A stretch of 56,439 nucleotides of DNA, taken from IMG/VR virus record IMGVR_UViG_3300015264_000006, positions 1-56,439 of that record, one strand, 5' to 3'. The DNA is from a virus. The notes beneath the pieces were generated by a model. That model was not told where the DNA came from. It ran no database searches and saw only the letters and a program-made list of their open reading frames with translations. Position numbers and translations under genes: made by a program. Shown one piece after another: positions 2,654-38,729 of this stretch (within the stretch, counting starts at the first letter, position 1; each line of letters begins with the position of its first letter).

Positions 2654-2752
2654 ATGAGACACGACCCCCGCCGCGCAGGACCGCCCCCGCCATCCGTGCC
2701 GCCGCTGGCCGGCCCGCCGCTGGCCCGCTGGCCGCAGGAGGCCGCCCGGTGA
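2654..2752 (+). CDS. Possible 32-residue leader peptide
   Basis: This short frame is rich in proline and arginine. Its TGA overlaps the GTG at 2749 (GTGA), the same coupling used throughout this genome, and an AGAGG lies upstream of its ATG. The composition is low-complexity and could arise by chance in GC-rich DNA. Confidence 0.3.
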   Translation: MRHDPRRAGPPPPSVPPLAGPPLARWPQEAAR

Positions 2753-3084
2753 GCGTCATCCGGTACCAGCGCAAGCCGAAGCCCGAGCCGGAGGGCATCC
2801 TGCACGCCGCCCGCTACGACCCCGGCCAGCCGCTCAGCGACCTCATGAAGGTCGCCCGCATGGCCGACCACTACGCCGGGGACGCCGAGCTGGCCGAGGT
2901 CAGCCTGCCGTCCGGGCCGGTCCTCCTGGTCCGCTACTGGCGCGGGCGCGATGACGGGCCGGCGAAACTGGAGTGGGAAGTGGTCCGGCCCGGCGAGTAC
3001 CTGACCTGGAGCGAGTCCTACGACTTCCTGGGCACCGACACCGAGGACGGCCTGGCCCAGTGGTACGAGGAGATGAAGCGGTGA
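2749..3084 (+). CDS. Hypothetical phage protein
   Basis: 111 residues from GTG 2749. The N-terminus VIRYQRKPKPEPEGILHAARY and the later VRPGEYLTWSESYDFLG recall the layout of PGDYG-type phage proteins (a strand, then a P-G-[DE]-[WY] turn), but similarity is weak. It is the first of three coupled genes, with GTGA overlap to the DUF6221 gene and then an overlap to 3488. Confidence 0.6.
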   Translation: MSVIRYQRKPKPEPEGILHAARYDPGQPLSDLMKVARMADHYAGDAELAEVSLPSGPVLLVRYWRGRDDGPAKLEWEVVRPGEYLTWSESYDFLGTDTEDGLAQWYEEMKR

Positions 3085-36202: not shown

Positions 36203-36615
36203 AGCAGGCCGGCCAGTACGATCAGCGGCAGGGCATTCCATATGTCCCACACGTCAGAGCTGGACTGCCAGAGGTGGCCGTCAGTGTCGCCGTGCGGGTG
36301 CTCGCCGCATCTGAGATAGATGACCTTGTCGCCATTGCAGGTGGCGGAGCTAAACTCCCGTCCGCGAAAGTCACATCGATACCGCTCGCGAACTTCGGCT
36401 GAACGGACAAGCGAGCCGTCAAGCGAGCCGATGACCTCGATTATGCCGGTGGCAGCAAACGGCTTGCGAGCGCCAGTGCGAATGCGGCCGAACGGCTTGA
36501 TCAGGAAGGGATCTACCTCGTCAAGCTGACGAGCGACGCTCAGGGTGACCTGCCGTGAGCCGACCATCAGCACGCGGACCTCAGCGGTCAGTACCTCAAC
36601 CGTCGCGGTGCTCAT
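36199..36615 (-). CDS. Hypothetical protein conserved in actinobacteria
   Basis: 138 residues. MSTATVEVLTAEVRVLMVGS, then RQVTLSVARQLDEVDPFLIK and PFGRIRTGARKPFAATGIIE: the VGSRQVTLSVxRQLD segment recurs in actinobacterial genomes and phages. The C-terminus (IWNALPLIVLAGLL) is hydrophobic. Function unknown. Overlaps the endolysin stop by ATGA. Confidence 0.65.
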   Translation of the reverse strand: MSTATVEVLTAEVRVLMVGSRQVTLSVARQLDEVDPFLIKPFGRIRTGARKPFAATGIIEVIGSLDGSLVRSAEVRERYRCDFRGREFSSATCNGDKVIYLRCGEHPHGDTDGHLWQSSSDVWDIWNALPLIVLAGLL

Positions 36616-37493
36616 GCCGTGCCGCCTGGCAGCCACAGCGGCAGCCCCGCCCGCATGACCGCATCCCACCCGATGCGCCCGGTCAGGACGCCGTTCACGT
36701 ACTCCGCGAACGCCGGCGGGAGGACGCCGCCGGGCGAGTGCGCCAGCGTCAGCCGCACGATCACCGACGGGTCCGTGCCGTGCTGGCGGGCGAGCCCGGC
36801 CAGGGACGACTGCCCGGCGGTCACGTGCAGCACCGGGCCGGACGGCCTGGGCGGCGGCGCGAACAAGCGGATCCACGCGTCCAGGTCCGCGCTCGTGCCG
36901 TTGAACGCGTCGCGGTCCACCCCGTTGCGGATGCCGTACTGCCAGAATTTCCACGACGACCACGGCTTCACCTCCGCCGGCGACGGCGCGGTAGCGGCGG
37001 GGTGGGCGATCCACAGGGCGTACCGGTCCAGGCCCGCGCAGTACCCGCCCTTGGCGAAGCTGAGGAACGTGTAGACGCCGCGCGGGTTGCGGGGGCACAG
37101 CTTGTCCAGCTCAGCCATGAACGCGCGGGCGCACGCCGCGGTCTCGCGGAAGCCGGGGTTGGCCGGGTTCTCGTTGTCGAGCCACAGCATGTCCTGCGGG
37201 GTCAGGCCGAGGTCGTGGTAGGCGGCGGCGAACCGGGCGGCCTGGGCGGCGCCGGACTCGAACGGGTCGAGGAAGTGGTAGGCGCCCCTGTGCAGGCCCC
37301 TCTTGGCGATCTCGGCGTGGTTCCACTGCGCTGTGGGATCAGGCGAGTTGGTGCCGGGCGTGGACAGGCCCTGGGTGAGGCGGTGGATGCCGAACGACAG
37401 GCCGGACGTGGCCGACCAGGCGAACTTCCCCTGAAAATTGGACACGTCCAGGCCCTGGGCGGAGCGGACGGTGGTAGCTGCGGGGTGGGTCAT
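36612..37493 (-). CDS. Endolysin, GH25 muramidase
   Basis: 293 residues. GLDVSNFQGKFAW, HRGAYHFLDPFESG, DMLWLDNENPANPG with the catalytic acids, GVYTFLSFAKGGYCA and WKFWQYGIRNG are the GH25 lysozyme pattern (residues 13-215). After a proline linker, LHVTAGQSSLAGLARQHGTD ... YVNGVLTGRIGWD is a LysM-like wall-binding domain. It cuts between MurNAc and GlcNAc to release progeny. Confidence 0.9.
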   Translation of the reverse strand: MTHPAATTVRSAQGLDVSNFQGKFAWSATSGLSFGIHRLTQGLSTPGTNSPDPTAQWNHAEIAKRGLHRGAYHFLDPFESGAAQAARFAAAYHDLGLTPQDMLWLDNENPANPGFRETAACARAFMAELDKLCPRNPRGVYTFLSFAKGGYCAGLDRYALWIAHPAATAPSPAEVKPWSSWKFWQYGIRNGVDRDAFNGTSADLDAWIRLFAPPPRPSGPVLHVTAGQSSLAGLARQHGTDPSVIVRLTLAHSPGGVLPPAFAEYVNGVLTGRIGWDAVMRAGLPLWLPGGTA

Positions 37494-37957
37494 GCGGTGC
37501 CTCCTGCGGGCTCGTACGTGGCTTCGAAGATGTCGGGCTTGGCAATGCCGAATAGGAAATCTGCTGCGCGCAGTAGCAGGGTTGGGTTGTCCCTGAAGAA
37601 GCCGAGTCCCTTGTTGCACGGTGCGCAGAGGCGACCTCGAACCCGGCCTGTCTGATGGCTGTGATCGATGCAGAGGCGCTCGGTCGCACCACAGATGACG
37701 CAGACCATTGGCATTGCATCCCACTGGGCCTGCGTTAGGCCGAATGCGCTCCTGGCCTTATGGGCCGCCACGCGCTCTTTGTTCTCGGTCACCCACGCCT
37801 TGTGGGCAGCCTTGGCCTTCTCCGTGTTGGCGGCGTAGTAAGCGCTGCTTGCAGCCTGGCTGCATGCCTTGCACCAGCTCGTCGGCTTCGCCCTGGTCTT
37901 GTCGCGGTAGAACTCGCTCAGCGGCTTGGCTACACGGCACTTCGAGCACGTCTTCAT
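37490..37957 (-). CDS. Endonuclease VII-type HNH protein with a captured tail
   Basis: 155 residues. Zinc ribbon KTCSKCRVAKPLSEFYRD with CKAC, then CVICGATERLCIDHSHQTGR, RGRLCAPCNKGLGFFRDNP: recombination endonuclease VII. The last residues, KPDIFEATYEPAGG, are not part of this family but are the standard C-terminus of PGDYG proteins, and the upstream gene is a PGDYG protein. The gene appears to have entered a PGDYG gene and kept its 3-prime end. Confidence 0.85.
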   Translation of the reverse strand: MKTCSKCRVAKPLSEFYRDKTRAKPTSWCKACSQAASSAYYAANTEKAKAAHKAWVTENKERVAAHKARSAFGLTQAQWDAMPMVCVICGATERLCIDHSHQTGRVRGRLCAPCNKGLGFFRDNPTLLLRAADFLFGIAKPDIFEATYEPAGGTA

Positions 37958-38232
37958 TCGCTCACGGCCTCGTAAGTCAGGGCGAAAACATCTGCGGCGC
38001 AGGGGTAGAGCTCGGACTTGACGCCGCGGATGATCCAGTCGCCGGGGCGGAATTCCATGTCGCCCTCCAGCGTCGTGATGTAGCCGCCGTCGTTGGTGCG
38101 GCTTTTCCACGTGTGGCCAGGAGCCGATGAGCCGCCGAGGAATGCGGTTACCTCGGTGCAGCTGTCTCCGCTGCCGGTGAACTGGACGGCCTCGATGACG
38201 ACGGGCTTCTTGCGGTACCGCTGGCTGGTCAC
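37954..38232 (-). CDS. PGDYG-family protein
   Basis: 92 residues from GTG 38232. YRKKPVVIEAVQFTGSG, ITTLEGDMEFRPGDWIIRGV and ELYPCAADVFALTYEAVSE fit the small phage family with the PGDxI motif. Function unknown. Its C-terminus, ADVFALTYE, is paralogous to the KPDIFEATYE tail on the adjacent HNH protein. Confidence 0.8.
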   Translation of the reverse strand: MTSQRYRKKPVVIEAVQFTGSGDSCTEVTAFLGGSSAPGHTWKSRTNDGGYITTLEGDMEFRPGDWIIRGVKSELYPCAADVFALTYEAVSE

Positions 38233-38444: not shown

Positions 38445-38576
38445 AGCAGGCTCCGGCTTTTTGTCTTTTCCATTTCAATTCCGCTTTTCCCGCGCGCATC
38501 GCGCGTTGCCAGTCGTTCAAGATTTCTGCGCGTCAGTTAGGTGGGGTCTCCGTTAGTCCGTCCGTCCGTCCGTGCT
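38445..38576. other. AT-rich segment beside the iterons
   Basis: CGGCTTTTTGTCTTTTCC-ATTTCAATTCCGCTTTTCCC (about 38455-38494) is the most T-rich stretch seen in the early region. It is followed by a CGCGCATCGCGCG palindrome and a TCCG tetranucleotide run at 38558-38573. It could be the unwinding element of an origin. Confidence 0.5.
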
Positions 38577-38729
38577 CTTGTGACAAGCATTGTGACAAGC
38601 ATTGTGACAAGCATGTTTCCGCAGGTCACACGGCGTTTTGAGCATCGTGACAAGCATCGTGACAAGCATCGTGAAACGGACATTGAGCATCGTGACATCT
38701 GAGTTTCACCTGGCCTGAGCATCGTGACG
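38577..38729. repeat. Iteron array, candidate replication origin
   Basis: Eight related 12-bp units with consensus AGCATYGTGACA. Three are in tandem at 38579-38614 (the first with a diverged left half), then units begin at 38641, 38653, 38665, 38686 and 38718, spaced near multiples of the helical turn. The last unit is inside the 3-prime end of the neighbouring initiator-like gene. Iterons with an AT-rich flank are typical of theta origins. Confidence 0.8.

Follow-up and report, generated by a model that had tools for sequence, protein, structure and literature searches.

Phage homing nucleases are usually thought to be intergenic or to be hidden in introns or inteins. Here we report a locus in a viral DNA sequence of 56,439 nt (positions 1 to 56,439 of IMG/VR virus record IMGVR_UViG_3300015264_000006, the whole of which is hereafter called the window), in which a gene for an Endonuclease VII-type nuclease directly follows a PGDYG-type gene. 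We consider it likely that the locus holds a free-standing phage homing element with two parts, the nuclease gene and a 3' end that replaces the one in the target, a gene of the PGDYG family.

The closest described architectures come from fungi. The mORF elements of fungal mitochondria were reported in Allomyces atp6, Rhizopus atp9 and Glomus atp6, atp9, cox2 and nad3 (PMC3630166). As in the phage element, a mORF places an endonuclease open reading frame (ORF) inside a gene together with a foreign C-terminal coding end and displaces the native end downstream, where it is nearer to relatives than the inserted end and is sometimes in frame with neighbouring ORFs (PMC3630166). The nucleases of mORFs are LAGLIDADG or GIY-YIG proteins of mitochondria (PMC3630166), whereas that of the phage element is an Endonuclease VII (DHHRN) protein of tailed phages; unlike mORFs, the phage element is only ~0.46 kb long and also has 5'-end versions. 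The WHO elements of yeast FBA1 likewise combine a nuclease with an upstream resistant target 3' end and involve no splicing, each integration swapping the 3' end and pushing the old one downstream (PMC7282813). They differ in having an intein-derived nuclease with a zinc finger, in forming tandem clusters and in residing in yeast nuclear genomes, and cleavage and resistance have been demonstrated for WHO elements (PMC7282813), whereas we infer both for the phage element. Membership in the WHO family proper was excluded, as there is no intein-derived, HO-related nuclease and Endonuclease_7 was the sole Pfam match above the cut-off for the window nuclease; the phage element would work like a WHO element but is not one. 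A group I intron or intein was also excluded, by the reading frames alone and without an Rfam scan, since the target has its own stop codon ahead of the nuclease, which is a distinct ORF with a start of its own.

Among phage systems, the DHHRN or F-CphI Endonuclease VII homing endonucleases are phage-borne and share the catalytic and zinc-binding residues, and the accessible part of their description mentions no target-end duplication (PMC6083498). The T4-type free-standing homing endonuclease genes (MobE/nrdA, MobA/gene 60) are similar in being phage nuclease genes in functionally important genes, but, in the part of the source available, such insertions split the target into two reassembling pieces (PMC2988022), whereas the target of the phage element stays whole with its end resupplied. 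The phage literature, in its accessible parts, describes intron-borne, free-standing and gene-splitting nucleases. No description of end replacement in phages was found there, which is a weak absence because subscription papers were mostly outside the search, and no mention of PGDYG was found in the literature searched. As far as we found, the end-replacing architecture is known from fungi and is apparently undescribed in phages, occurring here with an unrelated nuclease.

Organization of the locus

The genes and parts of the locus in the window are as follows, where 'tail 1' and 'tail 2' are the two versions of the PGDYG end and Clown and L002 are related loci described below.

37954..38232, minus strand: PGDYG-type gene, read as invaded with its 3' end replaced; GTG start, 92 aa, ending in YPCAADVFALTYEAVSE and a stop codon
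37954..37998, minus strand: tail 1, the 3' end that the element putatively brought to the PGDYG gene as a replacement (AADVFALTYEAVSE and stop codon), its left edge set by homology to the Clown/L002 identity step
37490..37957, minus strand: Endonuclease VII-type (DHHRN-motif) nuclease gene; 155 aa, ending in LFGIAKPDIFEATYEPAGGTA and a stop codon (Pfam PF02945, E 1.7e-16)
37553..37720, minus strand: nuclease residues 80-135, forming the Endonuclease_7 catalytic domain (Pfam)
37490..37540, minus strand: tail 2, the putative displaced native PGDYG 3' end (KPDIFEATYEPA), forming the in-frame nuclease C-terminus and followed by GGTA and the stop codon
37496..37505, minus strand: endolysin ribosome-binding site (AGGAGGCACC), read from the sequence, within the final nuclease codons
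37541..37998, minus strand: probable mobile unit, tail 1 and the nuclease body up to the displaced tail, delimited by homology to the Clown/L002 unit and the Clown empty sites
36612..37493, minus strand: downstream GH25 endolysin gene, a flank outside the element (Pfam PF01183, E 1.1e-21)

The PGDYG stop and nuclease start codons overlap in ATGA, as do the nuclease stop and the endolysin start (37493). The first-pass annotation, which was made from the sequence alone, had called the upstream gene a PGDYG protein, and we use this label provisionally, from a match to PHROG 419 (E 1.7e-29; labelled 'unknown function') and from record annotations, such as that of Enterococcus phage ZJGS3, from which the name is taken. 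The motif in the window reads PGDWI; the gene had no Pfam or NCBIfam match, and its AlphaFold model had no significant match in a fold search of the PDB for function.

The PGDYG gene of the window ends in YPC-AADVFALTYEAVSE and the nuclease in GIA-KPDIFEATYEPAGGTA. Since the family consensus after YPC is KPDIFEATYEPV, the aberrant tail is on the PGDYG gene, and the one on the nuclease fits the family better. On a 12-column matrix built from 34 native PGDYG tails, a few of which were mis-registered with the sole effect of weakening the matrix, tail 2 scored 41.3 bits versus 13.6 bits for tail 1. The earlier claim that the nuclease ends in a PGDYG C-terminus thus holds for tail 2, but not for the final GGTA. 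At an endolysin locus 84% identical to that of the window (L369), with no PGDYG or nuclease gene just upstream, the preceding unrelated ORF ends in ATTPGGTA and a stop codon over the same ribosome-binding site, and on these sequences GGTA is therefore the ribosome-binding site read as codons rather than part of a PGDYG tail. We also scanned the surroundings of the nuclease end at 126 other non-redundant Endonuclease VII loci, in each of the three forward frames. None had a PGDYG tail, the best of 25,062 positions scoring 6.3 bits, by which a chance tail or an ordinary Endonuclease VII C-terminus was ruled out; a tail on such a nuclease without a PGDYG neighbour, which the first-pass annotation had named as the observation that would speak against it, was accordingly not seen in any of these loci.

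The same arrangement in distant hosts

Scans in which the nuclease was the query against viral contigs and bacterial genomes gave five further loci, so that the order of PGDYG gene, nuclease and second tail is present at six loci in distant hosts. The five are as follows.

Gordonia phage Clown (L003/L055): second tail untranslated after the nuclease stop codon
L002 (IMG/VR 2645728084): second tail untranslated after the nuclease stop codon
L207, a Prauserella contig, taken as a prophage: second tail fused in frame
L208, a Clostridium contig: second tail fused in frame
L001, an AT-rich virus: second tail fused, apparently garbled by a one-base shift

Across the six loci, tail 2 scored 32-41 bits in five and tail 1 scored 11-29 bits. 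The spacing from tail 1 to tail 2, by reading of the sequences, was ~455-475 nt in the window, Clown, L002 and L001, and the fusion point in L001, L207 and L208 was after G-I/V/E-A as in the window. The Clown junction reads GAGTAG-CAAGCCCGACATCTTCGAG, with KPDIFEQTYEDAEPVD open in another frame. Because the displaced tail is untranslated just past the nuclease stop in Clown and L002, the sequences indicate that in-frame capture of the tail by the nuclease is incidental. Full relatives among 397 Prauserella-order and 225 Clostridium-order genomes were only L207 and L208, and the element is therefore rare there; the plasmids searched contained distant nucleases only.

Two side observations concern PGDYG genes. 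In L002, tandem PGDYG copies (2138-2416 and 2709-3032) are identical at 269 of 270 nt and both have the element tail 1, with the nuclease after the second copy only, the first being an element-ended, nuclease-free allele. In the Wizardvirus phages L141-L145 and L147, the 3' ends of PGDYG genes are near-identical with very different bodies, which gives this locus the appearance of a recombination hot spot even where the nuclease is absent.

The mobile unit and its empty sites

Between Clown and L002, nucleotide identity was 59% in the PGDYG body, 93% in tail 1, 88% in the nuclease and 47% in the downstream flank, with a jump immediately after TACCCGTGCAAG and a fall after the nuclease stop codon. 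Because these steps bound tail 1 and the nuclease, the mobile unit as read from the sequences is tail 1 plus the nuclease. When the Clown flanks were joined, they aligned without a gap across the junction to Squiddly, Wizard, Barb, Arri, Valary, Twister6 and Bakery, seven relatives that lack the nuclease. The PGDYG tail was continuous in all seven, which was the check that the first-pass annotation had proposed. In the 30 nt past the junction, the native sequence agreed with tail 2 at 25-26 positions in six of the seven relatives and with tail 1 at 16-17, and the Squiddly sequence agreed with tails 2 and 1 of Clown at 20 and 17 positions, respectively. Since the nuclease-free relatives match tail 2 better, tail 2 in Clown is, on this comparison, the displaced native end and tail 1 the foreign one. 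The proposal that the nuclease had invaded a PGDYG gene and captured its 3' end is thereby upheld, but the resident end, which the annotation had taken to be retained or rebuilt, was apparently not retained, being replaced over roughly a dozen final codons by a foreign end that travels with the nuclease; for the window itself, end replacement is proposed by homology to Clown. The tail 1 DNA of Clown and L002 (GATATATTTGAGGCAACC) resembles the native ends of viruses with a low guanine-cytosine (GC) content (L269, L270), which suggests that tail 1 was imported and did not drift. Recoding of tail 1 in place was rejected, foreign import being simpler given this likeness.

Klebsiella phage BUCT541 (L368:1251-2100) provides the clearest other target, which by its sequence is an independent second one, with a C5 methylase gene, a nuclease and a second copy of the methylase end. 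The methylase 3' end of the nuclease-free RSU-F4K5 (L373) and the displaced one of BUCT541 are nearly identical, whereas the resident BUCT541 methylase has another end with a similar protein sequence (NAIVPQCAAEFIAAF versus NAIVPQVAAEFIKAF). The same methylase-nuclease pair was found in KpV2811, YX3973 and vB_KpnS_ZX4, and KlebP_265 was without the nuclease. Thus, at the six PGDYG loci and the BUCT541 methylase the nuclease has a full-length target on one side and another copy of the target end on the other, in Clown and BUCT541 the displaced end, and not the resident one, matches the empty-site relatives, and in Clown and L002 the resident end and the nuclease move as one unit. As a side observation, the nuclease in Seifer also lies beside a cytosine methylase.

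The order of the parts, the unit boundaries, the empty sites, the divergence of the tails and the conserved catalytic residues (see below) can be read directly from these sequences, and from presence or absence at a precise site we infer homing. In the mechanism that we propose, the nuclease would cut element-free PGDYG genes at a position near the conserved YPC/KPDIFEATYE codons, and if the cell also held a phage with the element, repair from it would copy the new 3' end together with the nuclease. The target would be kept whole by a functional but diverged end, which would hide the site and should stop the nuclease from cutting its own copy; the foreign 3' end (tail 1) is thus probably cleavage-resistant. 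The native end would be pushed downstream, either to become an in-frame nuclease tail (the window, Prauserella, Clostridium and, with a frameshift, L001) or to remain untranslated (Clown and L002).

A different origin for the second tail would be a one-time illegitimate insertion of the nuclease with the 3' end duplicated from the same phage by target duplication or unequal recombination, with neither homing nor a foreign end. Such events can duplicate gene ends, and L002 holds the recent tandem PGDYG duplication described above, but tail 1 accompanies the nuclease from one PGDYG body to another, unrelated one, it is tail 1 and not tail 2 that is foreign in Clown, and the arrangement recurs at six loci and in other target genes. 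A young insertion of this kind would be expected to have near-identical tails, both native, and the Clown and BUCT541 data are the opposite. We therefore regard it as improbable, although it survives best among the alternatives to a homing element.

The nuclease and its tail

Residues D98, H99, H101, R107 and N115 and the cysteines C86, C89, C111 and C114 were invariant across 12 nuclease sequences, and the CXnC, D-H-x-H, R, CXXC and N residues of the DHHRN family were all present. The Pfam Endonuclease_7 and PHROG Endonuclease VII matches stop at residue 140 or earlier, before the tail. In the nuclease model the tail is a disordered appendage of low confidence (predicted local distance difference test score (pLDDT) 48-52) beyond a well-predicted body, whereas in the PGDYG model (AlphaFold, mean pLDDT 86) it forms a confident C-terminal helix, so that the PGDYG gene would need an end there. 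From this difference between the models, the target is predicted to need an end and the nuclease not to need the tail.

On the tree, PGDYG-linked nucleases cluster (0 of 500 shuffles as low), unlike nucleases at other targets, which are scattered. The four tail-fused nucleases, from contigs of both Actinomycetota and Bacillota, group in a clade with support of 99/83, and it could be argued from this clade, and from translation of the tail in four of the six nucleases, that the PGDYG-derived tail is a functional nuclease module under selection, for example a docking or specificity peptide. This is slightly less probable still than a one-time insertion, given that the tail is untranslated past the stop codon in Clown and L002, frameshifted in L001 and predicted to be disordered, and that the BUCT541 nuclease reads the displaced methylase end out of frame. 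Least probable of all is a Holliday-junction resolvase or restriction enzyme linked to PGDYG by neighbourhood hitch-hiking without mobility: resolvase activity is known for T4 Endonuclease VII, and the best fold match of the nuclease was the restriction enzyme Hpy99I (E 0.002; T4 Endonuclease VII only weakly, E 0.39), but no adjoining methylase gene was found in the window ORFs and the family searches, the element is absent from close Clown relatives with unit edges exact within a gene, and the catalytic motif lies in the C-terminal half, like the endonuclease clade and not the resolvase clade in the accessible part of the published comparison (PMC6083498).

Some observations nevertheless weigh against a homing element of this kind. 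No close nuclease-free relative of the window was found, the search via its endolysin giving one 84% relative (L369) with a different upstream gene, and, the Clown/L002 pair excepted, the copies at the six PGDYG loci are old and have diverged. The PGDYG nucleases are not strictly a single clade, the long-branched non-PGDYG row L309 falling inside in the best tree, and most of the Endonuclease VII loci examined were without detectable end duplication, which means that not all of the family shares the architecture.

End duplication at other target genes

For 115 non-redundant Endonuclease VII-type genes, we compared the peptides that immediately flank the gene on its two sides, with 4,956 GC-matched cross pairs as the null. 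A shuffle-based test of flank similarity was rejected in favour of this null because it is misleading in high-GC DNA, where frames are biased. The flanking peptides were alike at p<=0.005 in 6 of the 115 versus 0.6 expected, as follows.

L336:1050-2100: ribonucleotide reductase C-terminal end ITGHGGSCG in two versions around the nuclease
L042: ends LQKLKVKQSGE/NGE
L328: C5 methylase
L002: PGDYG
L203:2000-3500: DUF6321 gene, KTPAWQR; mirror image, in which the nuclease is preceded by a second copy of the 5' end of the gene that follows it
L318:1000-2016: mirror image in the same sense, with a second 5' end of the following gene ahead of the nuclease

The two end versions in L336 differ by synonymous codons at nearly every position. 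The tails of the window, L207 and L208 fail this test alone (p 0.1, 0.009 and 0.05, respectively), and their case therefore rests on the family matrix. By eye, L154 and L267 (900-2300) look like further 5' end duplications, and no convincing end duplication was seen on inspection of L280, L309 and L365. L154 (1900-2950) has three successive KIKISD/KIKIPD starts, in a small ORF, the nuclease and the downstream gene, possibly reflecting two successive 5'-end insertions.

With less confidence than for the PGDYG element itself, we favour the view that Endonuclease VII-type homing nucleases of tailed phages generally use end replacement to protect themselves and spare the host, and that this strategy has evolved more than once, at different genes and at either gene end. 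Its 3' targets would be PGDYG, C5 methylase, ribonucleotide reductase and a membrane protein, and its 5' targets the DUF6321 gene and up to three unassigned genes. If true, general end replacement would be the equivalent in nature of the home-and-rescue gene drives that have been engineered. A spare diverged target end would make insertion into a coding region harmless and probably self-immune, and two versions of the same gene end on either side of a nuclease would be a simple sequence signature for active homing nucleases, from which the target gene can be named and the likely cut site placed within a short stretch. End replacement can also account for short orphan ORFs and for annotated tails that look odd, and would mean that gene ends are exchanged between distant phages.

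Upstream of the PGDYG region, the window also contains an array of 12-nt direct repeats at 38574-38728 (TTGTGACAAGCA / TCGTGACAAGCA and variants).
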